From: an uncultured Flavobacteriales bacterium
GTDB lineage: Bacteria; Bacteroidota; Bacteroidia; Palsa-965
Assembly (NCBI GenBank): GCA_903873905.1
Contig: CAIQQJ010000111.1
Location: forward strand, 1 to 48,349
Length of the DNA stretch: 48,349 bases
Direction of reading: 5' to 3'
The notes under the pieces were generated by a model, which was given only the letters and a program-made list of their open reading frames with translations, did not search any database and was not told the origin of the DNA. The stretch's first letter is position 1. Every line of letters begins with the position of its first letter. The translations under genes and the position numbers were made by a program. Shown piece by piece: positions 3,331 through 45,256 of the stretch.

Positions 3331-3470
3331 TTACCAATTACCGGATTACTGATTACCAATGAAAAAAAAAGAAAATGAGTTACATAAATTGAATCCAAAA
3401 ACCAGTAATTGGTAATTGGTAATTGGTAATCTGGCAGTATAGTGGTCCCTTCGGGATAATTGGTAATTTT
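3331..3470. repeat. Inverted TTACCAATTA / TAATTGG word arms with fragment of dispersed element
   Basis: The left arm (3331-3360) carries TTACCAATTA words. The right arm (3406-3426) carries three perfect TAATTGG units in the opposite sense, with another copy at about 3459-3469. Between the right-arm pieces, 3440-3457 (AGTGGTCCCTTCGGGATA) closely matches 43404-43421, part of the dispersed element there. The tract fills the gap between two divergent genes. Confidence 0.65.
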
Positions 3471-3491: not shown

Positions 3492-4391
3492 ATGAAACAA
3501 TTTTTGATTTCAAGTATTGCCCTTCTGTTTTTCACCAATGCAAATGCGCAACTTCCTAATTCAGATGTGTGGTTGTTTTCCTATTCGGTCAAATCAGGAA
3601 ATTATTCTTTTGCGGATGGAAAAAATATCAGCAACAAAACAGGTTATGATAATCAGCCTTTCTTTTCGAAGGATGGGATGCAATTGCTATTTACTTCTGA
3701 GCAAGACAGTGGACAAACAGATATATTTCAATATGATTTGAAAAATGGAAAATCGCATAGGATCATTCATACAAGCGTAAGTGAATATTCGCCTGAATAT
3801 TTTTCCGGAAATCGATTCATTTCAGATGTTGTTGTAGAAAAAGATTCAACGCAACGTTTGTGGCAATATGATTCAATGGATGATTATGATCATTTTGAAA
3901 CGAAAATTCTTCTTCCCAATGTAAAAAACGTCGCATACAGTCGCTGGTTCAATGACAGCATTGTTTTTCTCTGCATTCTTCCTGAGCCAATGAATTTGTT
4001 TGTTGCAAACATAAACACACAAGTCATTTCAAAATGTGCGATGCATGTTGACCGTTCCATGGCAATTTATCATCAGAAAAATCGTGATCTGTTTTTGTAT
4101 TCTCAAATGAAGGCCGATTCTTCTTATGTAATTCAGGCATTGAGTAACACAGGAGCACCTGTTTCCGAATTTGGATCCATTCCATTCGTAAAAGGAAGCA
4201 TGGATTTTTCCATTGACAAAAAGGGAAATATTTTCATGGCAAGCGGAACAAAACTTTTCATTTGGACTGTAGGAAAAAGCAAGGAGTGGAAAGAGATTGA
4301 AGATTTTGCATCACAAGGCTTGCACAAAATCACACGACTAACAATTAGTCCCGATGGGAAACACATTGCATTAGTTGACAACACCAAATAA
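3492..4391 (+). CDS. Exported TolB/PD40-like beta-propeller protein
   Basis: 299 residues from the ATG at 3492, which gives a clean signal peptide (MKQFLISSIALLFFTNANAQ). The frame is open upstream to 3423, but that part lies in the intergenic repeat. The mature part has PD40-type blades: NQPFFSKDGMQLLFTSEQD near residue 60, SEYSPEYFSGNRFISDVV, and a final TRLTISPDGKHIALVDN. Such propellers usually mediate periplasmic protein or ligand contacts. No enzymatic motif is seen. The next gene starts 2 bases after the stop, so the two are probably co-transcribed. Confidence 0.8.
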   Translation: MKQFLISSIALLFFTNANAQLPNSDVWLFSYSVKSGNYSFADGKNISNKTGYDNQPFFSKDGMQLLFTSEQDSGQTDIFQYDLKNGKSHRIIHTSVSEYSPEYFSGNRFISDVVVEKDSTQRLWQYDSMDDYDHFETKILLPNVKNVAYSRWFNDSIVFLCILPEPMNLFVANINTQVISKCAMHVDRSMAIYHQKNRDLFLYSQMKADSSYVIQALSNTGAPVSEFGSIPFVKGSMDFSIDKKGNIFMASGTKLFIWTVGKSKEWKEIEDFASQGLHKITRLTISPDGKHIALVDNTK

Positions 4392-4392
4392 C

Positions 4393-4740
4393 ATGTACGA
4401 AAAAAAACATCAGTCACTTCTGCCCAAAAAACATTTTTACAGAAGAATTTTGAAAAGCATCTTGATTGCTAATTTTTTTCTTGCTATTTCCTTGTTCATT
4501 GGAATATCAGGATATCATTGGATTTGCGGACTGACATGGATTAATTCATTGATGAATGCATCGATGATTCTTGCGGGAATGGGGCCAGTAGATCTATTGA
4601 CAACAGTAGGAGGAAAACTTTTTGCATCTTTTTATGCGATATTCAGTGGCATTGCTTTTCTAACAACGATTGGCGTAATTGTTGCTCCGATTGCACATCG
4701 CTTTATGCATAAATTTCATATGCAAGATAACAATGAATAA
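4393..4740 (+). CDS. Small two-helix membrane protein
   Basis: 115 residues. A basic N-terminus (MYEKKHQSLLPKKHFYRRI) is followed by hydrophobic segments around residues 25-45 and 75-100 (ISGIAFLTTIGVIVAPIAH). Between them, ASMILAGMGPVDLLTTVGGK resembles the pore-loop-like region of some small membrane proteins, but no family can be claimed. The ATG at 4393 follows the previous stop directly, so the alternative TTG at 4375 is not needed. It probably forms an operon with the propeller gene before it and the acetyltransferase 43 bp after. Confidence 0.75.
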   Translation: MYEKKHQSLLPKKHFYRRILKSILIANFFLAISLFIGISGYHWICGLTWINSLMNASMILAGMGPVDLLTTVGGKLFASFYAIFSGIAFLTTIGVIVAPIAHRFMHKFHMQDNNE

Positions 4741-8130: not shown

Positions 8131-10961
8131 TGAATCGCTTTCCCGTAGAAATCATTTGCAATTAATTCCTCCAAGGTTTTTCTTTCACCTTTATAAGTGG
8201 CTGTGATCCATGAATCTTTTATTCCCTTTGCAATACATTGCTGACGGAAAACTTCTGCCTCACGAATGGTTTTGAATTCATGCAAGGTGAAACGTGTGAT
8301 ACCATCTGGGTAAGGAAGAATTTTAGCTGGACCATATTCCTTCAATTGAGCATATTTGAAATTTTCAGGATGACGGTAGGCGCCAATTTGCACTGTATAC
8401 ACAATGCCATCAGCACAATGGTTTCCTGTGACACCGAGGAATTTCTGATAAACAGCATTATCATTCAACGATTTTCCTTTGAAATACGCTAGATCAAGTG
8501 CGTTGCTATTACATGGAATATCAGCAAAAAATTCAGGAACGGTTTTTCTTACTCCGAAATAGAACACAGTAACTAGAGCTTTTGCTGCAACTGAATCACT
8601 TTTAACTAATTCACTTCTAAAATCTTCAGATTCTTTTAAGGTATTCCATGGTCCTAGATAATAACGGATGGTTCCATCGGCATAAGCTTTACGTTCAATT
8701 TTTCCATATTTCGCGAAATAGGCCAACCTAAAATCATTGGTATCCTTGACAGATGCGATTTCCAATTTATAGGTCAATCCTTCAGCTTGAAATGATCCAT
8801 AATCATTAACTATTTTATTATAGCCATAATTGGTTCCAATAGTGGTTAACAAAGTTCCTTGCGCACTCTTCACAACACGTGTATCCTCACGCACAACGTA
8901 TCCCTTTCGTTTGTAATCGTCCGCGTATAAAGTTGGAATCGTTTTACGCACTCCATTTTGAATAACCACAACTTCTGAATTGGATGCAATAGTTGAATCA
9001 TGTTTGGCAATTCGCGTCCGATACAATTCAGCGTCAAGAATAGTCTTAAAAGGTCCTACAGAATATCGAATATATCCCTCAGGTGTTACTTCTCTTTTGA
9101 TAGCTCCCAAATCGGAAACTTTTGTTGAATCAAAATCTTTTGGATTTTCATAGGTTCCAAGCTCCACAGTAAAAGTCTTTGAAGAATCACTATCATAACC
9201 ATATTTCTTCAAAACCTGTTTATAAATTCGTTGTTCATAAACCTGATCATTTTGTTCCGAATGAATTTGATTTAATTGTCTGTTAAGTTTCATCTGCAAA
9301 ACATCGTTAGAATCCTGAACCATTGGTTGAACACGATGCGTAGAATCTCCCTTCTCTGTTGTTCCAGATACAGTAGTGAAATTGTAATCCTTATTCACTT
9401 GAACGTAGGTGTCGATTCCTTTTACATTCACATATTCAAAATAAGGTGCGGAGCCTTCCACTTCAATTGCAACCTTATAGCTATTTCCAGGACTTAATGC
9501 AATCATGTATTTCCCTGAAGAACCATTGGAATGGTAAACACCATAACTTTTTCCAGTTAAAGAATCAGTAACAGAAACTTTTGCACTAACAGGATTGCCG
9601 TCGATTGTCACAAAACCCACTACAAGTGCAAGAATTGGCGGTTCTCCTTGAAAACCTGGCGCCACTACATAAATATCCTGCCCTCCTTTTCCACCTTTTC
9701 GATCAGAAGAAAAATACCCCGTTGCACCATCAGCTGTTATAGTGTAAAACCGTTCATTGGATGGCGTATTAATAGGATAACCCAAATTTTGTGGCTCTTT
9801 CCAAGAACCATTTTTTAATGTAGTATAGAAAAGGTCATATCCTCCCATACTATTATGTCCTTCAGAACTGAAAAATAAATTTATTCCATCCGGATGAATA
9901 TAGGGTGAGTCATCATTATAAGCAGTATTAATTCCAGGTCCAATATTTTCCGCAGGCCCCCAGGTTCCATCGGCCATTCTATGTGACAAATAAATATCCC
10001 TTCCACCAAAACCACCAGGACGATCACTTGCAAAATATAAAATTTGTCCATCACTAGAAAGAGAACAACTTCCCTCCCAATATTTCTTTGTATTGATGTT
10101 TGAACCTAAACGTTCAGGTGTTGACCATGTTTCTCCTTGAAGTGTACTTTGAAAAATATCACCACCATCTTTCTTTGTACTCTTGAAAATGAACAGAATT
10201 TGTCCATCGTTAGAAAGTGCAACAGTTGCATCATGACCTTTAGTATTGATATTATCACTAATAGGTTCAGGATTTTGCCAATGATCACCAACCCGATCTG
10301 AAACCATTATATCTTCATAATACTGGCCAGAAGAATCCGGATTGAATTTAGGGCCTTCCAAGCCGCCTGTACTTCTACTTCCACTGTAAGTGAAAATGAT
10401 ACGACTTTCATCAATTGTAATTAAAGGAACATATTCAGAATTTTCTGTATTAATAGGATCGCCTATATTTTTCAACTCCACCTCTGTCGTGTCTTTGCAA
10501 AGAACTTTTCCATTATTGCAATATTCTATATAACGATTGACTTCCCTTTTTTCATTCTCATCCAATTTTTCTTTTAGCAATGCTTTGTTGAATTCCAAAA
10601 TAGCTTTGTCAAAAAGATAATTCAAATGATACGCTCTTCCGAGATAATAATCAATCTTTTCAATGGAAGGATCAAGTTTCTGCGCTCGTTCCAATTGAAC
10701 AATCGCCAATTCCTTTTCATCGTTTTTATAGAGATAACAAATTCCGAGATGTAAATGAAAATAAGAATCATCCGGATGTGCTTCACTTAATTTCTTGTAG
10801 AAAGGAATAGCACGGAGATAATTTCCGTCTGCAAAATAAAACTCAGCATCCTCTAACCAACTGTCCTGTTGCTCTTCTTGTTTTTTAGTTTGTTTTTGAG
10901 CCACCAAAGAACCTGAAAAGCAGGACAAGGCAAGGATAAGCAAAATTGCGTTTCTCAACAT
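8127..10961 (-). CDS. TPR-PD40 envelope protein with three C-terminal SPOR-like repeats
   Basis: 944 residues from the ATG at 10961, which gives a normal signal peptide (MLRNAILLILALSCFSGSLVAQ); the frame is open 15 codons further. Residues ~30-135 are TPR repeats. About 180-430 are five PD40 blades (LSSDGQILYFASDRPGGFGG, IHPDGINLFFSSEGHNSMGG). A carboxypeptidase-regulatory-like beta domain follows at ~440-530. Three SPOR-like repeats open with FTVELGTYENP, YKLEIASVKD and YTVQIGAYRHP, each followed by ...GxIRYxxGPxxT and a KT(I/V/L) end. The front half resembles type IX secretion component PorE, but the usual OmpA domain is absent. SPOR domains bind peptidoglycan glycan strands, so they may replace it (inference). 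A shorter paralogue lies at 41634. Confidence 0.85.
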   Translation of the reverse strand: MLRNAILLILALSCFSGSLVAQKQTKKQEEQQDSWLEDAEFYFADGNYLRAIPFYKKLSEAHPDDSYFHLHLGICYLYKNDEKELAIVQLERAQKLDPSIEKIDYYLGRAYHLNYLFDKAILEFNKALLKEKLDENEKREVNRYIEYCNNGKVLCKDTTEVELKNIGDPINTENSEYVPLITIDESRIIFTYSGSRSTGGLEGPKFNPDSSGQYYEDIMVSDRVGDHWQNPEPISDNINTKGHDATVALSNDGQILFIFKSTKKDGGDIFQSTLQGETWSTPERLGSNINTKKYWEGSCSLSSDGQILYFASDRPGGFGGRDIYLSHRMADGTWGPAENIGPGINTAYNDDSPYIHPDGINLFFSSEGHNSMGGYDLFYTTLKNGSWKEPQNLGYPINTPSNERFYTITADGATGYFSSDRKGGKGGQDIYVVAPGFQGEPPILALVVGFVTIDGNPVSAKVSVTDSLTGKSYGVYHSNGSSGKYMIALSPGNSYKVAIEVEGSAPYFEYVNVKGIDTYVQVNKDYNFTTVSGTTEKGDSTHRVQPMVQDSNDVLQMKLNRQLNQIHSEQNDQVYEQRIYKQVLKKYGYDSDSSKTFTVELGTYENPKDFDSTKVSDLGAIKREVTPEGYIRYSVGPFKTILDAELYRTRIAKHDSTIASNSEVVVIQNGVRKTIPTLYADDYKRKGYVVREDTRVVKSAQGTLLTTIGTNYGYNKIVNDYGSFQAEGLTYKLEIASVKDTNDFRLAYFAKYGKIERKAYADGTIRYYLGPWNTLKESEDFRSELVKSDSVAAKALVTVFYFGVRKTVPEFFADIPCNSNALDLAYFKGKSLNDNAVYQKFLGVTGNHCADGIVYTVQIGAYRHPENFKYAQLKEYGPAKILPYPDGITRFTLHEFKTIREAEVFRQQCIAKGIKDSWITATYKGERKTLEELIANDFYGKAIQ

Positions 10962-14729: not shown

Positions 14730-17700
14730 ATGAAAAAGAAAATTCTTTTACCCCTCCTAATTGCAGTGATAGGAATTTCCATTCCGTCTTTTTCACAACA
14801 AAAATCAGTTATTAATAATCCCGATGTACCAGGTGCAAGCGGATATCCTGGAACAAACTCTTCCATTGCTCGAAACACCAACGGGAATCCAACACCACAA
14901 AATGGAAGTGGAACTTTAGGGAATTATTATTCCCTCACAAAATGCGGATTAAATTATGCCACCGCTTCTCAAGTATTAGGACAACGTTTACCTCAACCGG
15001 GAGTTCCTCAACCTGCTCCATTTACAATCAGTGGTGTTCCTGTTGGCCCTTGCGTTACCATAGAAAAAGCATTGTTGTATTGCGATGCATCTGGAAATGG
15101 TGCAGCAATGACAGCCACCGTCAATGGTCCTTTGGGATCGGCTAATTACCCAATGTCAATCATTGGAAGTGGAGCCGACAAATGCTGGGGTTATTCAGGA
15201 TCTTATTCTTATCGCGCTGATGTGACCGCTTCCGTTAATGGAAATGGAACTTATAATGTGAGTGGACTTCTCACAAGTCCCCCTTCAAGTGGAAATGACG
15301 TTGATGGTGCAACACTCATTGTAGTCTGGAGTGATGGATCACAATCCTATCAAGGCACAATTCAACTTGATGATGGATGTATTGAGGTAAGTGGAGGTGT
15401 CGCAAATTACAACATGACCTACCCTGCAATTTGTGGAGCACCTACAAATGGACAAGCTTTTTTCTGCGTTGGTGATATTCAAATGAATCCATCTTCATGG
15501 TCGGCAAATAGTACTTCATGCCCATTAATATATTCTTGGTGGAATTATGTAACAACAGCAAGTACCTATGCAGTTAGCCAAACAACCTCAAATTTCAATG
15601 TTAACTCCAGTGGGGATTGTTTCAATTTGCTAATGGCAGGGGTGTATTATCAGACAACTTGTTTAGCTTGTGTTTCCTCTTCGCTAGTATTAGCAACAGC
15701 ATCTACCGGGGCAACCTGCTCAGCTTGTAATGGAACAGCCACAGTCAACGTTACCTCGGGATCAGGTCCATTCACCTATTCATGGTCACCTTCTGGTGGA
15801 ACAGGTGCGACTGCAACTTCATTATGTGCGGGAACATATACTGTAGCTGTTAATTCACCATGCGGTACAACTACAACAACAATTGTCGTACCGGTAATAC
15901 CAAGCACGTTAGCTGTTTCTAGTTTATCCCAAACTAATGTCTCTTGTAACATTGGATGTGATGGAACTGCTGCCGTTTCGGTTACAGGAGGAACAGCACC
16001 GTTCATATATGCATGGACACCATCAGGAGGCAATGCATCTTCTGCAACAGGTTTGTGTTTGGGTAGTTACACCTGTACTGTGACTGACGCAAGTGCATGT
16101 ACACAAACTCACGTATTTGCTATAACTCAGCCAAATTCACTAATAACCACAGCATCCCAAACAAACGCTACTTGCAATAGTGGATGTGATGGGACAGCAA
16201 CTTGCACTGTTACAGGAGGGACTCCAGGCTATACTTATTCATGGGCACCAAGTGGTGGAACTGCAGCAACAGCTTCTGGATTGTGTTTCGGAACTTATAC
16301 TTGCACTGTTGTTGATGCAAACAATTGTACAACAACACAAACATTCTCAATCACCCAGTCAACAGCATTAATCGCTACTCCATCACAAGGAACAATTTCA
16401 TGTAACGGAGGAACAACAACGGCATCAGTGGTAGCAGCGGGAGGAACGGGGCCTTATACCTATGCATGGACACCATCAGGTGGAACGGGTGCAACAACAA
16501 CCGCCATTGTAACCGGTTCTTATACCTGTACCATTACAGATTCTCATGGTTGTACTACAACACAATCATTTTTAATTACGCAACCAACCGTGCTCACTTC
16601 AACTTCATCTCAAGGAACTATTTCTTGCAATGGAGGAACAACAACAGCTTCAGTTGTTGGAACTGGAGGAACAGGACCATATACTTATTCTTGGACACCA
16701 GCAGGTGGAACGGGAGCAACCTCAACTGCCATCATTGCAGGAACCTACACTTGCACAATTACTGATTTCCATGGTTGTATTACAACACAATCTTTTACAA
16801 TTACCCAACCAACAGCTGTCGGAGCCACATCAACACATGGAACAATTGCATGCAACGGAGGAACTTCAACAGCTTCCGTAACTGCTTCTGGCGGAACAGG
16901 ACCATATGCATATACTTGGACGCCTTCTGGTGGAACGGGATCAACATCTGCCGCCATTGCTGCTGGTACATACACTTGTACAATTACAGATTCGCACGGT
17001 TGTATCACAACACAAACAGTAACCCTCACCCAGCCTAGTGCATTAGTTGCAACAACTGTAGGAGACTCTGCATGCCTGGGTTCATCTACTCAAATTTCAG
17101 CAAATGCCAGTGGTGGTGTTGGTCCTTATACATATGCTTGGTCAAATGGACCAACTGGGCAATCTCAAATTGTAACATTAAACACTAGTACCAATTTCAC
17201 CGTAACCATAACAGATGCACATGGATGTACAACAACTGGAACATCAAGTGTTACAGTTAATCCAATTCCAGTAGCTGCAATCACTTCCAATTCTAACAAT
17301 GGAATTTATGTGTACTCACCATCAACACAATTATGCTTCTATGGGCCAACTGTAGGAATAACAACTTGGAATTGGACGCTTCAATCGGGAACTTCAAACG
17401 TGCAAGATCCTTGTGTGAATATTTTACCTTCAGATACAGGATCATTTTGCGCTCAACTTATTGTGCAAAATATTCATGGTTGTTCAGACACGGCGAATAC
17501 CTGTGTTGAAATTTTGGACATTTCCTTTTCTATTCCAAACGTTTTCACCCCAAATGGAGATAATAATAACGATGCCTTTGTCATTACGAATGTCGGAATG
17601 AAAACATTGCATTGCATGATTTATGATCGTTGGGGTGTTTTGGTTTATGAGTGGAATTCTCCTTTAGGTTATTGGGATGGTATGACAAAAAGCGGCCAAC

Positions 17701-17801
17701 AGGCTGTTGACGGTGTTTATTATTGGACACTTGAAATGAGCGATTATGCTGGAAAAAACTATGACAATCATGGATTTGTTCACTTGATCCGAGGAAAATA
17801 A
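14730..17801 (+). CDS. Secreted SprB-repeat protein with type IX secretion C-terminal domain (first of pair)
   Basis: 1023 residues. The signal peptide is MKKKILLPLLIAVIGISIPSFSQ. Residues ~25-310 form a Cys- and Gly-rich N-terminal domain (KCGLNYATASQVLGQR, GSGADKCWGYSG, DGATLIVVWSDGSQSYQGTI, DDGCIEVSGGVANYNM), shared with the next gene. Residues ~325-830 hold six SprB-type repeats (SCNGGTTTASV...GGTGPYTYAWTPSGGTG...GTYTCTITD.HGC). A divergent seventh repeat and a PKD-like domain follow. The last ~95 residues (SIPNVFTPNGDNNNDAFVIT to VHLIRGK) are the gliding-motility-associated C-terminal domain that routes proteins through type IX secretion. It is probably a surface adhesin (inference from SprB). 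Confidence 0.92.
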   Translation: MKKKILLPLLIAVIGISIPSFSQQKSVINNPDVPGASGYPGTNSSIARNTNGNPTPQNGSGTLGNYYSLTKCGLNYATASQVLGQRLPQPGVPQPAPFTISGVPVGPCVTIEKALLYCDASGNGAAMTATVNGPLGSANYPMSIIGSGADKCWGYSGSYSYRADVTASVNGNGTYNVSGLLTSPPSSGNDVDGATLIVVWSDGSQSYQGTIQLDDGCIEVSGGVANYNMTYPAICGAPTNGQAFFCVGDIQMNPSSWSANSTSCPLIYSWWNYVTTASTYAVSQTTSNFNVNSSGDCFNLLMAGVYYQTTCLACVSSSLVLATASTGATCSACNGTATVNVTSGSGPFTYSWSPSGGTGATATSLCAGTYTVAVNSPCGTTTTTIVVPVIPSTLAVSSLSQTNVSCNIGCDGTAAVSVTGGTAPFIYAWTPSGGNASSATGLCLGSYTCTVTDASACTQTHVFAITQPNSLITTASQTNATCNSGCDGTATCTVTGGTPGYTYSWAPSGGTAATASGLCFGTYTCTVVDANNCTTTQTFSITQSTALIATPSQGTISCNGGTTTASVVAAGGTGPYTYAWTPSGGTGATTTAIVTGSYTCTITDSHGCTTTQSFLITQPTVLTSTSSQGTISCNGGTTTASVVGTGGTGPYTYSWTPAGGTGATSTAIIAGTYTCTITDFHGCITTQSFTITQPTAVGATSTHGTIACNGGTSTASVTASGGTGPYAYTWTPSGGTGSTSAAIAAGTYTCTITDSHGCITTQTVTLTQPSALVATTVGDSACLGSSTQISANASGGVGPYTYAWSNGPTGQSQIVTLNTSTNFTVTITDAHGCTTTGTSSVTVNPIPVAAITSNSNNGIYVYSPSTQLCFYGPTVGITTWNWTLQSGTSNVQDPCVNILPSDTGSFCAQLIVQNIHGCSDTANTCVEILDISFSIPNVFTPNGDNNNDAFVITNVGMKTLHCMIYDRWGVLVYEWNSPLGYWDGMTKSGQQAVDGVYYWTLEMSDYAGKNYDNHGFVHLIRGK
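15709..17060 (+). repeat. SprB-type coding repeats, six units of about 225 bp
   Basis: Six tandem protein repeats of ~72-76 residues, each with a Cys near its start, a GPYTY(A/S)W core and a final (D/H)GC. Units four to six are markedly more alike than the others, including near-identical nucleotide phrases such as GATTCTCATGGTTGTA-type endings. This suggests recent duplication or gene conversion. Confidence 0.7.
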
Positions 17802-17843
17802 TTTTTGTAAAAAAAAACCAGAGAGTATTTCTTTGCACGCCAA

Positions 17844-20800
17844 ATGAAAAAAAACTTTTTCCGATCCATTCTTTTTGCTGTAATTGTTTTTTCAAATTCA
17901 ATTGTAGCACAACAGAAAACCAATACAAATTTCCCAGGTGTACCAGGAGCATGCGGATTTCCAAAAAAGCAAGAAGCTACTGCACGAGGCTCATCAGAAA
18001 ACCCAAAACCGCTTGATGGGATAAATACACTTGGGAATATTTACAACGTTTCAAAATGCGGATTAAATTACATTGCTGTATCCCAAAAATTGGGACAGCG
18101 TTTTACTCCTGCAGGTGTTGTGCAACCCGCACCATTTTCTGTTAGTGGATTACAAATTTGTGATTCAATTGAAAAAGCATATCTCTGGGTGGAAGGATCA
18201 GGAGCGGGTGGCCTACAAACCGCAACCATTCAACCGCCATCAGGTCCAACACAAAACTTTCCAATGACACTTGTAGGATCAGGTCCTGATAAATGTTGGG
18301 GATATCCCGAAACTGTTACCTACCGTGCTGATGTCACGTCAATCATTAATGGAAATGGAATTTATAATCTCAGTGGAATTAATACAAGTCCACCAATGAG
18401 TCAAGAGGATATGGATGGGGCAACTTTGGTAATTATTTACAGTGACCATATGGCAACTTACCAGGGAACAATGGTGATTGATGATGGATGTATTGAGGTT
18501 AGTGGTGGAGTTGCAAATTACGACATGAACTATAATCCTGTTTGTGGTGCAACTACAAATGCAAAAGCATTCTGTTGTGTTGGTGATCTTCAAATGGCCA
18601 TTCAATCATTGACAATGAATGGAACTCCTGCCGCTTTCGCATGGGACTGGTGGAATTATGTAGAGACTTCGACAACTGTGAATCTTGCACAATCCACTTC
18701 AAATTTTAATTTAAATACAAGTGGTGATTGTTACAACCTATGTGTTGTTGGACTTTATTATCAAACGGCAAGTTGTGCTATATGCCCACTTATCTCTCCA
18801 ATACTTTCCATCGCTACAACTTCTACGACATCTTCATGTCCAGGTTGTAGTGGAACCGCCACTGCGAATCCTACACCTGCAGGAACATATACCTACAGTT
18901 GGTTTCCAGGAGGACAAACGACTCAAACTGCAACTAATCTTTGTGCAGGAATTTATACTGTTTCCGTAACAGGAGGCTGCATGACACAAACAACCACAGT
19001 AACTGTTGCCAACGCAGGAGCACTTATTGCAGCTCAATCTCAAACAAACGTGAGCTGCTTTAATGGAAGTAATGGAACGGCACATGTTATTCCGTTTGGA
19101 GGACTTGGCCCTTACACCTTTGCTTGGGTACCGATTGGAGGAAATGGGGCTACAGCAACAGGACTTTCTGCAGGAACATATACCTGCACAATAACAGATG
19201 CAAACGGTTGTATTTATGTAAATGGTTTTACTATAACACAACCAGCAGGAATGTCCATTTCAGTGACCATACAGAATGCACTTTGTTATGGTCAAACAAA
19301 TGGCAGTGCTTCGACTGCTGTAACAGGTGGTTCTCCTAGTTATACTTATGCATGGACCCCAACAGGTGGAAATGCCTCGACCGCCACAGGATTCGCTCCA
19401 GGAAATTATTCAGTAACAGTTACCGATGCCAATGGTTGTTCACAAATACAACCTGTGGTTATCACACAACCTGCCATTTTAAGCAATGTAATGACAACAA
19501 TTGATGTCGGCTGTTTTGCAAGTGGAAGTGCTACAGCAACTACATCTGGAGGAACAGGGCCTTATGCCTATTTATGGTCGGATGGTGGAAATAGTTCCAC
19601 GGACATTAACCTTACAGTTGGAACTTACACGGTACTCATTACAGATGCAAATGGTTGTACCATGACAGACACTGCAATAATTAATAGCACTAGTGGAATT
19701 ACCACAACTTCAACTTTCCAGTATATTACTTGTCACGGAATGAATAATGGATCTGGAACAGTGGTTTCCTCAGGAGGAAATCCTCCCTATACTTATGCAT
19801 GGTCGCCTTCTGGAGGAAATGCTGCAACGGCAGTTGGACTTTCTGCAGGAACTTATACTTGCACCATAACGGATTTGAATGGATGCATTTCAACAGCAAC
19901 ATTTGTCTTTACCGACCCTCCAACCCTTACATCAATTTCTGCCTCGACTAATGTAAGTTGTAATGGCGGTACAAATGGCTCTGGAACAATTTCACCTACG
20001 GGAGGGACAGGACCCTACACTTTCGCCTGGTCGCCTTCGGGAGGAACTGGGCAAATTGCCAATGGCCTTGGAGCAGGAAATTATGTGGTTACTGTAACCG
20101 ATGCACATGGTTGTATTACAACACAATCAATTACCGTAACGCAACCGACTGCAATGAACATTACAACTGTCGGTGATTCTGCTTGCATGGGACAAGCTTC
20201 CACCATTTCTGCCAATACAAGTGGAGGTGTTGGACCTTATACCTATTCCTGGTCGAATGGTCCTACTACACAATCTCAAAATGTGAATATCAATACAACG
20301 ACAACATTCACGGTTAGCGTTACAGATGCCAACAATTGTGTTTCTACAGCAACAACCCTTGTAACGGTGAATCCAATGCCACTTGCAACCATTGGATCAA
20401 ATACCATAAATGGAGTTTATACTTTGAATGGGCCAAACAGTCAATTGTGTTTTACTGGGCCTACTTCGGGAATTGTTTCATGGAATTGGAATCTGAATAA
20501 TGTAGGAACCTCGGCTTTACAAAATCCTTGTGTACCCGTTTCCCTTGCTGATATGGGACAATATTGCGCGACCTTAGTGGTTGTAAATAATCATGGTTGT
20601 GTTGATACTTCTGATGTGTGTTTGGAAATCAATAATGTTTATTACTCTATTCCCAACGTCTTCACGCCTGACCAAGATGGAACCAATGACGGATTTGTGA
20701 TAACCAATATGGGAATGAAAACTCTTCGTTGTGAAATTTTTAATCGTTGGGGAGAATTGATTTACAGTTGGGATAGCACAACAGGATTTTGGGATGGAAA

Positions 20801-20918
20801 AACAAAAAATGGAAATCCTGCTGTTGATGGTGTCTATTATTACACTGTCTTTATGGCTGACTTCCAGGATAAGACCTATAACGAAAGTGGGTTTGTACAG
20901 TTGGTGAGAGGAAAATAA
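17844..20918 (+). CDS. Secreted SprB-repeat protein with type IX secretion C-terminal domain (second of pair)
   Basis: 1024 residues, a paralogue of the preceding gene in every segment. The signal peptide is MKKNFFRSILFAVIVFSNSIVAQ. The shared N-terminal domain reaches ~residue 310 (KCGLNYIAVSQKLGQRF, GSGPDKCWGYPE, DGATLVIIYSDHMATYQGTM, DDGCIEVSGGVANYDM). About six SprB-type repeats are more diverged than in the first copy (VSCFNGSNGTAHV, ALCYGQTNGSAST, ITCHGMNNGSGTV). A PKD-like domain follows, then the type IX C-terminal domain (SIPNVFTPDQDGTNDGFVIT to VQLVRGK). It starts 42 bp after the first copy and is probably co-transcribed. A GAGTATTTCTTTGC stretch before it is a weak -7 candidate. 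Confidence 0.92.
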   Translation: MKKNFFRSILFAVIVFSNSIVAQQKTNTNFPGVPGACGFPKKQEATARGSSENPKPLDGINTLGNIYNVSKCGLNYIAVSQKLGQRFTPAGVVQPAPFSVSGLQICDSIEKAYLWVEGSGAGGLQTATIQPPSGPTQNFPMTLVGSGPDKCWGYPETVTYRADVTSIINGNGIYNLSGINTSPPMSQEDMDGATLVIIYSDHMATYQGTMVIDDGCIEVSGGVANYDMNYNPVCGATTNAKAFCCVGDLQMAIQSLTMNGTPAAFAWDWWNYVETSTTVNLAQSTSNFNLNTSGDCYNLCVVGLYYQTASCAICPLISPILSIATTSTTSSCPGCSGTATANPTPAGTYTYSWFPGGQTTQTATNLCAGIYTVSVTGGCMTQTTTVTVANAGALIAAQSQTNVSCFNGSNGTAHVIPFGGLGPYTFAWVPIGGNGATATGLSAGTYTCTITDANGCIYVNGFTITQPAGMSISVTIQNALCYGQTNGSASTAVTGGSPSYTYAWTPTGGNASTATGFAPGNYSVTVTDANGCSQIQPVVITQPAILSNVMTTIDVGCFASGSATATTSGGTGPYAYLWSDGGNSSTDINLTVGTYTVLITDANGCTMTDTAIINSTSGITTTSTFQYITCHGMNNGSGTVVSSGGNPPYTYAWSPSGGNAATAVGLSAGTYTCTITDLNGCISTATFVFTDPPTLTSISASTNVSCNGGTNGSGTISPTGGTGPYTFAWSPSGGTGQIANGLGAGNYVVTVTDAHGCITTQSITVTQPTAMNITTVGDSACMGQASTISANTSGGVGPYTYSWSNGPTTQSQNVNINTTTTFTVSVTDANNCVSTATTLVTVNPMPLATIGSNTINGVYTLNGPNSQLCFTGPTSGIVSWNWNLNNVGTSALQNPCVPVSLADMGQYCATLVVVNNHGCVDTSDVCLEINNVYYSIPNVFTPDQDGTNDGFVITNMGMKTLRCEIFNRWGELIYSWDSTTGFWDGKTKNGNPAVDGVYYYTVFMADFQDKTYNESGFVQLVRGK

Positions 20919-21059: not shown

Positions 21060-21173
21060 TTATTTGTTTGAAATTGCGTTGATCTGAAATAGCCCTGATT
21101 GCAGCGGTTGCCTTGCAAAAGCGGAAAGCAGGTGAAGTGTATCAGTAAAACTGATTACTCCCTGCTCCCAAAA

Positions 21174-28414: not shown

Positions 28415-30217
28415 ATGAAAATTAATTCGCCAATTTATTTTCTCCGTGTCTCCGTTTCGCAGCTTGTTCAGGGCTTGTCGACTGGATGGTTTTTCAAACC
28501 GCGTAATTTTTATTCCAACCTCCTGCTCCTCCTTTCCTGCTCCTTCATCCTTTTTTCTTGCAGCAGCAAAAAGATTAAAGTTGATCTGATCGTTTCGCAT
28601 GCGAAAGTATATACCGTTGATGGCGGATTCGCCGTATTGGAAAGTTTTGCAATAAGAGATGGGAAAATTGTCGCAGTAGGAACCAATGCAAGCATCGCTC
28701 AAGTTTATGAAGCGGACAGTTCAATGGATGTTCAAGGCAAAACAATTCTTCCAGGTCTTATTGATGCACATTGCCATTTTGTGGGATATGGATTGGGATT
28801 GCAAGATTGTAATCTAGTCGGAACAAAATCTTTTGCGGAAGTAATTGATCGCGTGAAGAAATATGCAGCAACAAACAAACACGAATGGATTGTTGCTCGC
28901 GGTTGGGATCAGAATGATTGGGCAGTGAAAGAATATCCAAACAATAAATTGCTTGATAGTTTATTTCCAGGCAAACCAATTATTCTAAAACGCATTGATG
29001 GACATGCAGCATTGGTCAGCAGTGAAGCAATGCATCGCGCGAAGATCAATGATTCAACTGAAGTACCAGGAGGAGAAATTCTGCATGAATTGATTGAAGG
29101 GAAATCGATCCATCACAAAATGATTTTCATCAAAGGGCTTGCAACGGGAATACTCATTGACAATGCCGTTGATCTAGTGGAAAAAATTATTCCACAACCC
29201 GATGCCAATACAATCCGGGAATCGCTTTTGGCTGCGCAACAAAATTGTTTTGCAGTTGGTTTGACAACAGTTGACGATGCAGGCTTGATGAAAAATCAAA
29301 TCGACTACATCGATCAACTTCAGAAAAAAGGTGAATTGAAAATGCGGATTTACGCAATGCTTAGCGATTCACTTCCGAATTATGAATATTATTTGATTCA
29401 CGGTCCGTACAAAACGGATTTTCTGAATGTGCGTTCCTTTAAATTTTATGCAGATGGTGCGCTAGGTTCACGTGGTGCTTGTTTGTTGAAAGCGTATGAT
29501 GACCAAACGCAATGGAAAGGTTTTCTACTGAATTCCGAAGCGCATTACATTCAGAAGATGAAACTTTTGGCACAAAAACAATTCCAAGTTTGTACACATT
29601 GCATTGGAGATTCTGCAAATCGCTTGATACTTTCCATTTACGGAAACATTTTATCCGACACCAACATTTCAAAACAAGGAATCGACCGTCGATGGAGAAT
29701 TGAACACGCACAAGTTGTTGCAACATCAGACATTGCATGGTTTGGAAAATTCAACATCATTCCTTCCGTTCAACCCACACATGCTACAAGCGACATGTAC
29801 TGGGCTGAAAAACGTCTTGGTCCATTTCGAGTAAAAACCGCTTATGCCTATAATGATTTATTAAACGCTGCGGGTCGGCTTGCCTTGGGAACTGATTTTC
29901 CTGTTGAGGAAATAAATCCGATGTTCACTTTTTATGCAGCCGTTACGCGTCAAGATCAACAACATTTTCCTGCTGGTGGTTTCCAAATGGAAAATGCGCT
30001 GAGCAAAAGAAATGCATTGATGGGAATGACAAGCTGGGCTGCTTATGCAAATTTTGAAGAAAATGAAAAAGGTAGCATAGAACCTGGTAAATTTGCAGAC
30101 TTCATAATTTTAAATGAAGATCCAATGACCTGTTCTCCCGAAATAATCCCAACCATAAAAGTTCTCGCAACTTATATTGCAGGACAAAAAGTTTTTGAAC
30201 GCATTGAAAAAAAATAA
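28415..30217 (+). CDS. Lipoprotein amidohydrolase (YtcJ-like, family 3)
   Basis: Up to 600 residues. Metal-dependent amidohydrolase core: KTILPGLIDAHCHFVGYG (metal HxH as HCH, ~residue 118), DGALGSRGACLL, CTHCIGDSANRL, RIEHAQVV and LGTDFPVEEINPMFTFYAAV. A composition-domain end closes it (GSIEPGKFADFIILNEDP). A lipobox occurs at LSCSFILFSC, so it is probably exported. The natural reaction of YtcJ-type enzymes is hydrolysis of amides or formamides; the substrate is unknown. The first ~35 residues before the signal core read through a CTCCGTGTCTCCG word tract, so the true start may be later (no in-frame ATG is nearby, only TTG codons at 28463 and 28475). Confidence 0.9.
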   Translation: MKINSPIYFLRVSVSQLVQGLSTGWFFKPRNFYSNLLLLLSCSFILFSCSSKKIKVDLIVSHAKVYTVDGGFAVLESFAIRDGKIVAVGTNASIAQVYEADSSMDVQGKTILPGLIDAHCHFVGYGLGLQDCNLVGTKSFAEVIDRVKKYAATNKHEWIVARGWDQNDWAVKEYPNNKLLDSLFPGKPIILKRIDGHAALVSSEAMHRAKINDSTEVPGGEILHELIEGKSIHHKMIFIKGLATGILIDNAVDLVEKIIPQPDANTIRESLLAAQQNCFAVGLTTVDDAGLMKNQIDYIDQLQKKGELKMRIYAMLSDSLPNYEYYLIHGPYKTDFLNVRSFKFYADGALGSRGACLLKAYDDQTQWKGFLLNSEAHYIQKMKLLAQKQFQVCTHCIGDSANRLILSIYGNILSDTNISKQGIDRRWRIEHAQVVATSDIAWFGKFNIIPSVQPTHATSDMYWAEKRLGPFRVKTAYAYNDLLNAAGRLALGTDFPVEEINPMFTFYAAVTRQDQQHFPAGGFQMENALSKRNALMGMTSWAAYANFEENEKGSIEPGKFADFIILNEDPMTCSPEIIPTIKVLATYIAGQKVFERIEKK

Positions 30218-30959
30218 TCAACTCCTTATTTTCTTGCTCCTCTTGTCATTTGCAGCAAGAGCATTTCCTCCTATTCCCCCTGCTCCTGCTGTGCTGGTAA
30301 AAAAATACGGTTACAGTTTTGCAGGTGGTGGTGTAATTTCTTTTTTCAAAGTAGACACGCGCCACAGTGAAAAAGCGCACATGCTTCCTGGCTTCAGTGG
30401 AATTTTTAGATTGGAATTTTATCCCGTTTCAAATGTCCATATCCAAATGGGATTTGAACTCATGACACAAGCTTGTAAATTCAACACCTATTATTTTGCT
30501 CCAGGATATTCTCAATTGTACGATCGTTCGTTCGGTTATGAGCACACCTTGCGCACAATGGAATTATATCTTCCAATTACAGCACGCGTTGCTTTCAATC
30601 CGAATGAATCGAATGAACATTCTATTTTTTATCTCATAGGAGGATACGCGCCGAAAATTTTCATCAACTCAAGCACAAATGTTGTCGAAAAGGACAATGG
30701 AAAAGGAATATGGGGAGGCTCCACCGAATTGGAATACGAACACCATTTCATCGGATTGCAAACAGGAAATGTTATGATTGCAGGAATGGGCCTCGACAAA
30801 CGTTTTGGATTCACAGAAAAATTTCTCAGCTACGAAATTATTTTCCGTTACAATTTATCGCGCTTTATTTATAAAGGAAGAATGGGAATCGAAAACACAA
30901 ATGATCTGCTCATCAAAAATTGTTGTGTGAATTTTCAAATCGGATATCGGTTTCAATAA
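30204..30959 (+). CDS. Outer-membrane beta-barrel-like protein
   Basis: About 251 residues from a TTG at 30204, which yields a clean signal peptide (KKNNQLLIFLLLLSFAARAF); it overlaps the amidohydrolase gene by 14 bp. The mature part alternates hydrophobic and polar residues in strands (GFSGIFRLEFYPVSNVHIQM, YLPITARVAFNPNE) and ends NFQIGYRFQ, close to an outer-membrane barrel terminus. It is the last gene of the permease-dehydrogenase-amidohydrolase unit, perhaps a porin-like or accessory outer-membrane partner (inference). Confidence 0.78.
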   Translation: MKKNNQLLIFLLLLSFAARAFPPIPPAPAVLVKKYGYSFAGGGVISFFKVDTRHSEKAHMLPGFSGIFRLEFYPVSNVHIQMGFELMTQACKFNTYYFAPGYSQLYDRSFGYEHTLRTMELYLPITARVAFNPNESNEHSIFYLIGGYAPKIFINSSTNVVEKDNGKGIWGGSTELEYEHHFIGLQTGNVMIAGMGLDKRFGFTEKFLSYEIIFRYNLSRFIYKGRMGIENTNDLLIKNCCVNFQIGYRFQ

Positions 30960-30968
30960 AATTATTAT

Positions 30969-31040
30969 GGCGTGCCCTTTCAGGTCGGGCTTTCCGCGCT
31001 ACAAGGTAGCTTGCTTCAATCCCTCACGCGAAAAAAAAAA
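30969..31040 (+). repeat. Dispersed hairpin element, copy 1
   Basis: The 5' end is GGCGTGCCCTTTCAGGTCGG and onward. A variable middle contains the hairpin GCTAC-AAG-GTAGC. The 3' end is TTCAATCCCTCACGCG, followed by a run of ten A. The terminal GCGTG and CACGC are complementary, so the whole element can fold. It lies after the outer-membrane gene, between convergent genes. Confidence 0.65.
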
Positions 31041-38660: not shown

Positions 38661-38673
38661 AAGAATTTTATAC

Positions 38674-38749
38674 GGGCGTGCCCTTGCAGGTCGGGCATTA
38701 CGCTCCCAACAGTATTGTAGGGATTGCTGCAATTCCTCACGAAAAAAAA
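38674..38749 (+). repeat. Dispersed hairpin element, copy 2
   Basis: Opens GGGCGTGCCCTTGCAGGTCG. The variable middle holds CCCAACAGTATTGTAGGG (imperfect hairpin). It closes GCTGCAATTCCTCACG plus eight A. It abuts the PAP2 stop codon (38750-38752). Confidence 0.65.
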
Positions 38750-39331
38750 TTACTTTAACACAGGAAGAACTTTTTGATAAAGTATAAATAACACAATTGC
38801 CCAAAACGCTCCAATCATACACCCTCCTATCAAATCAAATGGAAAATGTACCCCAACATAAATCCGACTCCAACAAATTAATAGTGACCAAGGGAAAAGC
38901 AAAAACCATCCCCATCTTTTTTTCACTTGAGCAACGCCCTTTTTACTTCCCGACAACAGAAAAAGAAATGTTGCAATTGCAAATGTATTTGCCGCATGAG
39001 CCGAAACAAAACCAAATTGCCCACCACCTCCAAGCGGCGTTATCACCTGCCCTGTTAATGCAGGATCATAACAAGGACGAAGTCTTCCAACATTATTTTT
39101 TAGCAGATTAGAAGTTTGATCGCTCAGAAGCACGAGTAAGCCAACCGTCAAAATAATTACAATCGATTGCTTTTTGAAACGTCTCCAAATCAGAAAAAGC
39201 AAAATTGCATAAAGCGGAATCCACAACCATTTCCCAGTAATAACTGGCATGACGTCATCCAAAAAAGGATTTCTCCAATGATGAATGAGAAGAAAAAGTT
39301 GGTGATCAAAATTATTGAGAAACGTTAGCAT
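38750..39331 (-). CDS. PAP2-family membrane phosphatase
   Basis: 193 residues with five to six helices. The three phosphatase motifs are KNNVGRLRPCYDP (KxxxxxxRP), FGFVSAHAANTFAIATFLF (SxH; Ser-Ala-His here) and SRIYVGVHFPFDLIGG (SRxxxxxHxxxD). The active site is therefore complete and faces the periplasm. Possible substrates are undecaprenyl pyrophosphate or lipid phosphates. It stands alone on the minus strand, with the dispersed element at its 3' end. Confidence 0.93.
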   Translation of the reverse strand: MLTFLNNFDHQLFLLIHHWRNPFLDDVMPVITGKWLWIPLYAILLFLIWRRFKKQSIVIILTVGLLVLLSDQTSNLLKNNVGRLRPCYDPALTGQVITPLGGGGQFGFVSAHAANTFAIATFLFLLSGSKKGVAQVKKRWGWFLLFPWSLLICWSRIYVGVHFPFDLIGGCMIGAFWAIVLFILYQKVLPVLK

Positions 39332-39918: not shown

Positions 39919-40686
39919 ATGTCATTTTTCTCCGATTTCAGTAAGGGAATTTCTTTTCACATAAAAGCTTTTGAATTCATTGCGAAGCATCGCTTGTGGG
40001 CATACTTTCTTTATCCAATTGCAATTATGCTCATTCTTGGAATTTTCGGATTCTGGTCCACATTCTCATTGGGAGGAAAACTTGCTGATGATGTCATTTC
40101 CCTGATCGGCTTATCTGATCCAGGTGAAGGATGGCTGCATTGGGTGAATTTCATTTTAAGTTTTCTGATCGGATTAATACTGAAGGTTTTTTTATTTTTC
40201 GTGTTCAGTTCATTCTTGAAATTCATTGTTCTGATTGTTTGTTCACCCATCATGGCCCTGCTTTCGGAACGCGTCGATGAAATCAATTCTGAAAAAAAAT
40301 ACCCCTTTCGATTCAAACAATTTTTACACGATATTTTCCGGGGAATAAGCGTGACCTTCCGAAACATGTTTTTCGAAACGCTGATCATCTTCGCCTGCAT
40401 GCTGATCGGATGGATTCCTATTATCGGTTGGATTGTTGTTCCATTTCTCTGGATAATTGGTTGGTATTTCCTTGGTTTTAACATGATGGATTATACCTAT
40501 GAGCGCAGAAAATTAAAAGTTTCAGAAGGTGCCATTTTCACTCGAAAACACAAGGGTATTGCAATTGGCAATGGAATGATTTTTTCCTTCCTACTCATGA
40601 TACCTTTCCTTGGAATAGCACTCGCACCCGTACTTTCTGTTGTAGCAGCCACATTGGCAACAATTGACACGATGGAAAGGAAATGA
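39919..40686 (+). CDS. EI24/CysZ-like membrane protein
   Basis: 255 residues with about four long helices and a cytoplasmic helical pair, the EI24 pattern. Phrases include FSDFSKGISFHIKAFEFIAK at the N-terminus, SPIMALLSERVDEINSEKKY, and FLGFNMMDYTYERRKL with a conserved Asp/Tyr/Glu/Arg motif. CysZ transports sulfate, but many EI24 proteins have unknown roles and no sulfur gene is nearby, so the name cysZ is not given. The stop codon overlaps a GATGTGCT repeat. Confidence 0.82.
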   Translation: MSFFSDFSKGISFHIKAFEFIAKHRLWAYFLYPIAIMLILGIFGFWSTFSLGGKLADDVISLIGLSDPGEGWLHWVNFILSFLIGLILKVFLFFVFSSFLKFIVLIVCSPIMALLSERVDEINSEKKYPFRFKQFLHDIFRGISVTFRNMFFETLIIFACMLIGWIPIIGWIVVPFLWIIGWYFLGFNMMDYTYERRKLKVSEGAIFTRKHKGIAIGNGMIFSFLLMIPFLGIALAPVLSVVAATLATIDTMERK

Positions 40687-40716
40687 TGTGCTGATGAGAT
40701 GATAAAGGGATGTGCT
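40685..40716. repeat. Inverted GATGTGCT copies upstream of mqnA
   Basis: GATGTGCT at 40685-40692 (overlapping the previous stop codon) and 40709-40716 are the reverse complement of the AGCACATC unit that is tandemly repeated at 40761-40832. The mqnA promoter box lies between the two orientations. Confidence 0.7.
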
Positions 40717-40735
40717 GATTTCTCGTCGAGTAAAT

Positions 40736-40743
40736 TATCTTTG
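40736..40743 (+). promoter_or_regulatory. -7 promoter box of mqnA
   Basis: TATCTTTG, followed by TACGC, is a strong match to the Bacteroidota consensus. Transcription would start near 40750, so the leader consists mainly of the octamer tandem repeat. Confidence 0.6.
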
Positions 40744-40760
40744 TACGCTGAAATTTAATC

Positions 40761-40832
40761 AGCACATCAGCACATCAGCACATCAGCACATCAGCACATC
40801 AGCACATCAGCACATCAGCACATCAGCACATC
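40761..40832 (+). repeat. Nine perfect tandem copies of AGCACATC
   Basis: 72 bp of an 8-bp unit with no variation, ending 5 bp before the mqnA ATG. It occupies the position of the ribosome-binding region. Confidence 0.95.
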
Positions 40833-40837
40833 TCTTT

Positions 40838-41587
40838 ATGATCAAAATCTCAGCAGTTTCATACTTAAACACAAAGCCATTTCTTCATGGATTGGAATTA
40901 TCGCCAGTAGCTAACATTTCACTCAGTTTGGATATGCCTTCTGAAGTGGCGAGAAAACTATTGGAAAACGAAGTTGATCTTGGATTAATTCCCGTTGCTG
41001 TAATTCCATTTTTGAAAGAAGCGCATATTCTTCCCGGGTTTTGTATTGGTGCTGATGGCCCTGTGGAATCTGTCAAACTTTATTCCCAAGTTCCATTAAC
41101 TGAAATTAAAACTATTTTGCTCGATTACCAATCGCGCACATCCGTTGCATTGGCTAGAATTCTTGCTGCAGAATTGTGGAATATTTCTCCTGAATGGAAA
41201 AAAGCAGAAGCTGGGTTTGAAGAAAATATTTCTGGAAATACTGCTGGAGTTGTCATAGGCGATCGCACCTTTACATTGAATGGAACTTTCAAATACGAAT
41301 TTGATCTTTCTGAAGAATGGAAGAAACTAACAGGATTGCCATTTGTTTTCGCATGTTGGGTTAGCAATAAACCCTTGCCAGCTGAGTTCATACATGAATT
41401 TTCTAATTCCTTGGAGAAAGGCTTGAACAATATTCAAGATGTGATTGGTAAAGAATCCCCAAAATATCTCCCTTTTGATGTGGAATTCTACCTCACCAAG
41501 TCGCTAAACCTAAGGTTGAATAAACGTGGAGAGGCTGCAATCGAGCTGTTTCTAGAAAAACTGAAACAAGTGCTTTCGCACACTTGA
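40838..41587 (+). CDS. mqnA: Chorismate dehydratase of the futalosine menaquinone pathway
   Basis: 249 residues. MqnA converts chorismate to 3-[(1-carboxyvinyl)oxy]benzoate, the first step of futalosine-dependent menaquinone synthesis. The fold is periplasmic-binding-protein-like. ISAVSYLNTKPFLHGLE at the N-terminus carries the family's SYLNxxP motif, VDLGLIPVAVIPFL and TVLLDYQSRTSVALA-type phrases follow (here TILLDYQSRTSVAL), and GVVIGDRTF near residue 140 is typical. The ATG at 40838 is chosen because the open frame upstream consists of the octamer repeat and precedes the promoter. Other mqn genes are not in the window. Confidence 0.92.
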   Translation: MIKISAVSYLNTKPFLHGLELSPVANISLSLDMPSEVARKLLENEVDLGLIPVAVIPFLKEAHILPGFCIGADGPVESVKLYSQVPLTEIKTILLDYQSRTSVALARILAAELWNISPEWKKAEAGFEENISGNTAGVVIGDRTFTLNGTFKYEFDLSEEWKKLTGLPFVFACWVSNKPLPAEFIHEFSNSLEKGLNNIQDVIGKESPKYLPFDVEFYLTKSLNLRLNKRGEAAIELFLEKLKQVLSHT

Positions 41588-43317: not shown

Positions 43318-43380
43318 TTGCCAATCTGGTAATTGCCGATTTCCAATTGTGGAATATTGAAATTGAAAATCGATTTTTTT

Positions 43381-43508
43381 TGCGTGAGGATAGTGGCGTC
43401 ACATAGTGGTCCCCTTGGGAAAAAGCCCGCAAGCCGTGGTGTTGGATTTGCAAACCCGACACTGCGGCTGAGGACTTGCAGCGGATAGCCCGACTCTTGG
43501 GGGCACGC
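43381..43508 (-). repeat. Dispersed hairpin element, copy 3 (long)
   Basis: On the minus strand it opens GCGTGCCCCCAAGAGTCGGG, continues CTATCCGCTGCAAG and closes CCTCACGC plus A run. Between them, the longer insert folds as GCAAGCCG...CGGC...CTTGC with an inner GTGTTGG/CCCGACAC stem. The subsequence 43404-43421 recurs at 3440-3457. Confidence 0.65.
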
Positions 43509-43606
43509 AATAATTAAAACTGTGGGAAGAGGCTGGGAAAATTTCGCGAAAAATAAATTGGTAATTGACAATTAACAAATTTGAAATGCGAAAGCATGCG
43601 CGTTGA

Positions 43607-43945: not shown

Positions 43946-43949
43946 TTTT

Positions 43950-44048
43950 GTTCGGAGTTGGGAGTGCTGAGTTCGGAGTAATTCTTGGAGTGGAATTAGA
44001 AGTGAAATTAATCGGATTTCTCCGAACTCACAACTCTGAACTCAGAAC
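43950..44048. repeat. 29-bp inverted repeat filling the M23-MerR gap
   Basis: Left arm 43950-43978 and the reverse complement of right arm 44020-44048 agree at 24 of 29 positions; both are made of GTTCGGAG/GAGTTC words. The right arm ends in the M23 stop codon (44048-44050) and the left arm is 5 bp from the MerR start. The loop is ~41 bases. Confidence 0.8.
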
Positions 44049-45019
44049 TAATCAAAGGCTGGTGATGATTGTGAGGACAGCTCAATGAGTTTTGCGTATT
44101 GCGCTGGTGTGAGATCGTTGTAATAATAATTGATTGGATTCATGAGTTCTCCGTTTTTGTGAACTTCATAATGACAATGCGGTGCTGTTGACAAACCTGT
44201 TGAACCAACATAGCCGATTAATTGTCCGCGTTTCACTTTTTGTCCTTCGACAACAACGTATTTCAACATATGACCATACAAGGTTTCATAACCATAACCA
44301 TGATTAATGACAACGTGATTACCATACCCTTGTGATTTAGCATCGGCAACCGTAACCGTGCCATCACCCGTTGCATAAATTTCTGTACCCTGTGGTGCCG
44401 CGAAATCCATTCCGGGATGAAATTCTTGTGTTTTGTAAATGGGATGAATCCGCCATCCGAATCCACCTGGTGCATGTCGAAGATCTCTATTGGAAACTGG
44501 CATGATGGCGGGAATGGAAGCAAGTAATTCCTTTTTCCCATTCGCCATTTTCACTACATCATCAAATGATTTCGATTGAATATAAATTTCTTTAGTAAGA
44601 CGATCCACCTTTTGAGTAAGAGAAACCATCAATTGCGAATTATTGTAGCCCTCCAAGGCGCTATATCGGTCAACACCACCAAATCCTGCTTGTCTGATAT
44701 CGCTTGGAATGGGTTCTGCTTCGAAAATAACGCGATAAATATTGTCATCCCTATTGGCCATATCCAACATCACCTGACTCAGGTTATCAATTTTCCGATT
44801 AACAAGATCATATTGCAATTGCATTTTTTCAAGTTCCCTGCGCAATTGTTTTTCTTTCGGAGAATCAAAATATTTAAAGGCAATGACAACGGAAATGACT
44901 CCAATGACAGAAGCCGTACCAAGAAAAGAAATGACACGAAAAAGACGCGTACGAAATGGCGTAACGGCCTTTTCGTAACTGAGTGTCTTCGTATTAAATT
45001 TATACCTGATTTTCGACAT
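44048..45019 (-). CDS. M23-family (LytM/NlpD-type) peptidoglycan metallopeptidase
   Basis: 323 residues. One membrane helix (~28-48, ISFLGTASVIGVISVVIAF), then a coiled coil (~55-95, KEKQLRRELEKMQLQYDLVN). The C-terminal M23 domain runs ~190-300 with zinc ligands in EFHPGMDFAAPQGTEI (HxxxD) and PHCHYEVHKNG (HxH), plus TLYGHMLKY. All zinc ligands and the second His are present, so it is likely catalytic. It cleaves peptide bridges in the periplasm or acts as an amidase activator. It pairs with the MerR gene on one strand and is divergent from alaS. Confidence 0.93.
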   Translation of the reverse strand: MSKIRYKFNTKTLSYEKAVTPFRTRLFRVISFLGTASVIGVISVVIAFKYFDSPKEKQLRRELEKMQLQYDLVNRKIDNLSQVMLDMANRDDNIYRVIFEAEPIPSDIRQAGFGGVDRYSALEGYNNSQLMVSLTQKVDRLTKEIYIQSKSFDDVVKMANGKKELLASIPAIMPVSNRDLRHAPGGFGWRIHPIYKTQEFHPGMDFAAPQGTEIYATGDGTVTVADAKSQGYGNHVVINHGYGYETLYGHMLKYVVVEGQKVKRGQLIGYVGSTGLSTAPHCHYEVHKNGELMNPINYYYNDLTPAQYAKLIELSSQSSPAFD

Positions 45020-45100: not shown

Positions 45101-45256
45101 AGTTCGGAGTTTTTAGTTCGGTGATTATTGCCGAAAAGTCTCCGAACTAAACACTTCGAACTAAGCACTAAAAATAAGTTAAGAGTTCGTGGTATGAAGT
45201 TCGGAGATTCTCTGAATAAATTTCTCCGAACTAAACACTTCGAACTAAGCACTAAA
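45101..45256 (+). repeat. Two tandem hairpin units in the alaS leader
   Basis: An exact 34-bp sequence occurs twice, at 45139-45172 and 45223-45256. Each copy is preceded by its inverted arm: AGTTCGGAG at 45101-45109 pairs with CTCCGAACT at 45140-45148, and 45198-45206 pairs with 45224-45232. The second unit ends 2 bp before the alaS ATG. Confidence 0.85.

Follow-up and report, generated by a model that had tools for sequence, protein, structure and literature searches.

Flavo-1 (Rfam RF01705) was proposed in 2010 as a candidate RNA by Weinberg et al. (PMC2864571), has since been listed as one of the abundant sRNA families (PMC9029176), and currently carries the Rfam type 'Gene; sRNA'. In the transcriptome of Flavobacterium psychrophilum, Flavo-1 matches show no preference for the sense or the antisense strand of transcribed regions, and a large number fall outside such regions altogether (PMC9723704). 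A literature search conducted largely without subscription journals returned no description of the extended element reported here, nor of Flavo-1 as a mobile repeat. Three classes of DNA element resemble it in part. Like REPs and REPINs, it is a short, folded intergenic repeat of high copy number, amplified in single species; however, it is larger, bears a junction and a variable tip, and, when tested, showed no association with RAYT genes. The attC sites have conserved ends, a folded single strand and a variable terminal structure—features that are all found in the present element. Finally, MITEs are likewise small, non-autonomous and intergenic with complementary ends, whereas this element has just a 5-bp terminal helix, an internal structure that covaries, no known autonomous partner and, within a limited comparison of boundaries, no target duplication.

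The window analysed here is a 48,349-nt stretch of DNA from an uncultured Flavobacteriales bacterium, in which the original prediction described three copies of a dispersed element with shared opening and closing motifs, complementary ends and a variable internal hairpin. The three copies are real and occupy positions 30970–31029 (+), 38676–38742 (+) and 43382–43508 (−) on the strand then considered; the finding is indeed stronger than a reader of the sequence alone could have known. All three contain GCGTGCCC-N-GTCGGGC, for which 0 occurrences are expected by chance, and the pattern GCGTGCCCN{2,12}GTCGGGC, representing the shared opening, matches the window three times versus an expectation of 0.00 from 100 dinucleotide shuffles. 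The closing CAAT.CCTCACG followed by an A run is broadly shared, although copy 3 has lost one C and closes with CTATCCTCACG, and in copy 1 a G separates CACGC from the A run. End-to-end pairing of GCGTG with CACGC and the variable inner hairpins were both confirmed, and the A run, as described, is not on the side where a terminator would need it. The piece of copy 3 said to recur at 3440–3457 does so as ATAGTGGTCCCTTCGGGA (3439–3456, plus strand), but this is a separate small palindrome, also nested in copy 3, rather than a fourth copy of the element; hairpins of the ATAGTGGTCCCTTCGGGA type recur inside several element copies of the source genome.

The original prediction gave the element no family name. 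From model matches, the window copies can now be assigned to an extended class of the Flavo-1 superfamily, lying on the strand opposite to that of the original prediction. A permissive cmscan placed RF01705 on this opposite strand in 17 of 20 loci of the source genome, with scores of 25.8–35.8 bits. The RF01705 gathering score of 42 bits is reached by no window copy: copy 1 scores 21.3 bits, copy 3 only 12.7 bits over 43377–43499 (+) and is absent from a second listing for the window, and copy 2 is not among the matches listed. Bridging elements from four loci in relatives (L077, L078, L093 and L094) score 52–58 bits with RF01705 and 53–65 bits, full-length, with R1, our covariance model of the extended class; since they pass the RF01705 cut-off and match R1, the extended class is homologous to Flavo-1. 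With R1, the window copies score 67.2 bits (E = 2e-16) for copy 1, of short-arm type (30960–31039, Flavo-1 strand minus), 47.1 bits (E = 5.9e-11) for copy 2 (38666–38752, minus), and 46.8 bits (E = 7.2e-11) for copy 3, a full-length type in which an extra hairpin is nested (43372–43518, plus). The window also holds a minimal, canonical-type Flavo-1-like copy, TAGCCCTGATTGCAGCGG...AGCGGAAAGCAGG (21087–21139, plus; RF01705 34.0 bits, E = 0.0015, below the gathering score), and a degenerate one (78–129, minus; 26.1 bits, E = 0.23).

The two forms share their strand, T-rich 5′ and A-rich 3′ flanks, and a central arm consisting of UA:UA, GNA-GGA loops, GC:GC and a stem with a C.A mismatch; alignments and column counts place the conserved internal loops and mismatch of Flavo-1 within this arm. 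The RF01705 model describes only the central arm, whereas the extended class adds the 5-bp terminal helix GCGTG/CACGC (P1) and a second hairpin (P2), giving a three-way junction in place of a single arm. It is a larger form of Flavo-1, previously unmodelled. From 5′ to 3′, the element comprises a T-run, GCGTG (P1), the long arm, the short hairpin P2 (CCY...RGG), CACGC (P1′), CC and AAA. The long arm proceeds through GGG:CCC, UA:UA, a G-N-A/G-G-A internal loop, GC:GC and a second such loop, both loops being symmetric 3x3 with G-N-A against G-G-A, to a stem of the AAGCCC:GGACUU type that mostly conserves the C.A mismatch and ends in a freely variable, often repeat-derived tip. In copy 3, the two sides of P1 lie at 43382–43386 and 43504–43508 on the plus strand.

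Covariation supports this structure in two alignments. The first, of 46 full-length copies from the source genome on the strand opposite to that of the original prediction, was not fitted to R1; here 91% of the structure is paired, and 40 cells changed on both sides versus 13.5 in shuffled alignments, none of 500 shuffles reaching as high. All five pairs of P1 are formed in 45 or 46 of the 46 copies, the arm stem exists as AAGCCC/GGACTT or as TACCCC/GGAGTA, two versions that compensate one another, and the inner pair of the arm is, almost without exception, either TA:TA or TT:AA. The second alignment, built by R1, contains 107 elements from 100 loci of other Bacteroidota, including Flavobacterium, Pedobacter, Niabella, Aquimarina, Ohtaekwangia, Adhaeribacter and Tannerellaceae. 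Changes on both sides occur in 16 of 21 pairs and in 270 cells versus 80 shuffled (0 of 500 shuffles as high), counts that lean towards the R1 structure because the alignment was fitted to it; the covariation score is 0.318 versus 0.108 shuffled, with all slid controls far lower. P1 itself shows compensatory changes across the phylum, reading GCGTT/AACGC in Bacteroides plasmids. Compensatory stem changes, named in the original prediction as support for a real structured element, are thus strong both in the source genome and across Bacteroidota. Outside the conserved C.A position, the non-Watson–Crick pairs of the source genome comprise 10 G.T and 0 A.C, and in the well-aligned helices of the phylum (P1 and the arm base) G.T pairs far outnumber A.C. 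This identifies the strand opposite to that of the original prediction as the one under selection to fold, whether as RNA or as single-stranded DNA.

The search of the whole genome and of relatives returned many further copies. The shared opening, searched as an exact end pattern, matches 50 times in the source genome and 0 times in a reversed control; a slightly looser pattern finds at least 77 copies, and R1 at least 145 matches in 3.9 Mb, some of the minimal type, this last count being a lower bound because 150 candidates were scored. In six congeneric genomes, of which two are incomplete, R1 matches number 1, 2, 16, 9, 4 and 12; the element thus amplifies in a single species (at least 145 copies versus 1–16 in congeners). 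Its length in the source genome is about 60–130 nt. Copies roughly twice the usual length, at about 175–240 nt, are numerous in two metagenome-assembled genomes, MAG-72 and MAG-134 (L136, L151, L168, L186, L199 and others). The intergenic DNA is also rich in short-unit, dispersed, microsatellite-like repeats (ATCAGCAC, GGTAATTGGTAATC, AATATCGAATATC, CTCCGAACTAAACACTT), which often abut elements; examples occur in the window at 1884–1936, 40684–40848, 43947–44052 and 45134–45256, and at loci L001–L073 of the source genome.

Turning to mobility, the most direct evidence for movement as a unit, read from sequence comparison, is a 112-bp segment that three plasmids share at 93.8–95.5% identity (Phocaeicola massiliensis and Bacteroides ovatus records) within surroundings that are largely unrelated. 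This unit reaches about 30 nt past P1, and its ends are therefore not exactly the modelled ones. Copies are also carried by conjugative Bacteroides plasmids. Matches to the core pattern occur in 17 putative viral stretches; a 9-kb contig with a viral classification (L447), which may be host DNA, has copies at 433–545, 6245–6377 and 9034–9148. Occupancy of an orthologous intergenic site in Flavobacterium is patchy: 16 of the 32 species carry the element, and close relatives of carriers lack it. On the species tree, where one carrier (L200) was scored empty because its copy sits farther from the anchor, leaving 15 carriers, well-supported branches force at least six changes, a pattern that may reflect either gain or repeated loss. 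At this site the tip has been replaced in place with ends and flanks unchanged, and once the whole arm, including its covarying inner pair, was swapped while ends and flanks were kept. The limited boundary comparison at the Flavobacterium site and on the plasmids brought to light neither a fresh insertion with clean ends nor a duplicated target, and genomes of the source genus are only about 70% identical, with intergenic DNA not alignable for an empty-site comparison.

We propose that the element is probably a non-autonomous, structure-constrained mobile DNA repeat, of the extended Flavo-1 class, with a putative trans-acting partner. A trans-acting protein would recognise the folded Flavo-1 strand and copy or move the unit, and apical hairpins may be swapped between copies by recombination. 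Two observations temper this proposal. Copies at orthologous sites have been retained in different species and seem more conserved than the DNA flanking them, a pattern also compatible with a selected function; and conservation of the core as deep as the phylum exceeds what is expected of a decaying repeat, unless a widespread partner recognises the core. More tentatively, and with appreciable doubt, Flavo-1 and the extended class could constitute a phylum-wide Bacteroidota mobile system in which a putative trans-acting enzyme, neither RAYT nor a known integrase, recognises chiefly how one strand folds rather than the tip sequence, the tips being exchanged between copies. If so, a family annotated by Rfam as sRNA would represent mobile DNA of a new, folded-strand kind. 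Flavo-1, a candidate RNA since 2010, now has a larger covarying structure, a selected strand and the character of a dispersed, evidently mobile repeat, and an open annotation becomes testable questions: which protein recognises the element, and whether it acts as RNA or DNA. R1 finds a class that Rfam misses, in the source genome, across Bacteroidota and on conjugative plasmids of gut Bacteroides.

Other readings were weighed against the proposed mobile repeat. Its description in Rfam would make the element a family of small RNA genes, each copy transcribed and predicted to act in trans, and strong covariation on one strand together with persistence at orthologous sites agrees with that annotation. 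However, a Bacteroidota −7 box lies upstream of 1 of 74 copies compared with 2–3 of 74 control flanks, giving no enrichment; no terminator is evident, a T5 run within 15 nt after the stem occurring in just 2 of the 74 on either strand; and the conserved flanks are limited to a short T-run plus CC-AAA. The scatter of more than 100 copies whose tips vary freely, and the F. psychrophilum matches, which fall on both strands of transcribed regions as well as outside them, likewise favour a dispersed DNA repeat over the sRNA-gene label, and we consider transcribed genes unlikely.

The copies might instead be a cis-acting 3′-UTR structure, such as a terminator, mRNA stabiliser or processing site, spread by its usefulness at gene ends. 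The original prediction placed all three window copies at gene 3′ ends, and they do lie 8–120 nt past stop codons: copy 1 is 11 nt past the stop of ORF 30177–30959 within a convergent gene pair, copy 2 is 8 nt downstream of ORF 38750–39331 (−), and copy 3 is between convergent genes. Genome-wide, at least one gene 3′ end adjoins 54 of 66 classifiable copies. With genes called by a simple ORF rule, the contexts nonetheless extend beyond gene ends, comprising 32 tandem, 22 convergent, 12 divergent and 8 contig-edge sites. The 12 copies between divergent genes, and the paucity of T5 runs after the stem, argue against a 3′-UTR role. The folding strand matches the direction of tandem neighbours in 15 cases and opposes it in 17; therefore no strand is preferred, though only one is selected to fold. 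A 3′-UTR function is accordingly a somewhat slimmer prospect than small RNA genes.

A true REP or REPIN mobilised by a RAYT (Y1, HUH) transposase would account for the REP-like behaviour noted in the original prediction, which holds: the element is a short, folded, intergenic repeat of high copy number. RAYT association, the REP hallmark, was tested and is unsupported. The sole R1 match of genome G001 does adjoin its sole RAYT gene, 32 bp past the stop, but we judged this a coincidence on follow-up, since 0 of 30 homologous RAYT loci in other genomes have an R1 match; none of the 20 of these loci tested with Rfam has a Flavo-1 match, and several hold other palindromes. No Y1 transposase match was found in genomes with 31 and 11 copies (G020 and G026), the element flanks none of the three Y1 genes in the source genome, and 20 of 63 element-positive genomes have no RAYT match in a hand tally. 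By the same tally, RAYT is commoner in element-positive genomes than in the rest, which phylogeny may explain. Insertion of single-stranded DNA on the lagging strand would predict a replication-strand bias; a hand count in three single-contig Flavobacterium genomes gave 40 copies with and 28 against the leading strand, a difference that is not significant, and an informal reading of flank profiles noticed no GTAG or CGTC tag beside the hairpin. RAYT mobilisation is thus improbable, and among the RAYT/Y1 transposases and the plasmid serine recombinase considered below, no mobilising enzyme was found. Separately, the source genome has a RAYT gene (L031, C137:300-644) with repeated palindromes of its own on its flanks, CTATCCCGTTAGGGATTA and AGTCCCTTTAGGGAC, which make up a distinct REP system.

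A plasmid serine recombinase was also rejected as mobiliser: its gene occurs in one conjugative Bacteroides lineage of about 30 records, in which a copy abuts its stop (L457 and L460, around 4000–4680), and no relatives occur at the other element loci searched. That adjacency, the conserved ends, the pseudo-symmetric boxes on both sides of the arm and the variable terminal structure would suit an attC-like recombination site of a folded-strand recombinase, as the original prediction ventured, but the copies are solitary, no integron integrase or cassette array was noticed among the loci read, and the likeness goes no further than general shape, making this reading very improbable. Chance or decay as the source of the similarity is excluded, because the pattern controls gave 0 reversed and 0.00 shuffled matches and phylum-wide covariation reaches 270 cells versus 80.

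Two further observations arose from these searches. Sub-threshold matches to RF01687 ('Acido-Lenti-1') lie beside RAYT genes at about half of 20 loci in other Bacteroidota (L291–L310), which suggests that a REP palindrome may underlie this Rfam sRNA family too. Within the window, 14730–20918 contains two large adjacent ORFs with many direct repeats of about 225 bp, which probably encode repeat-domain surface proteins.
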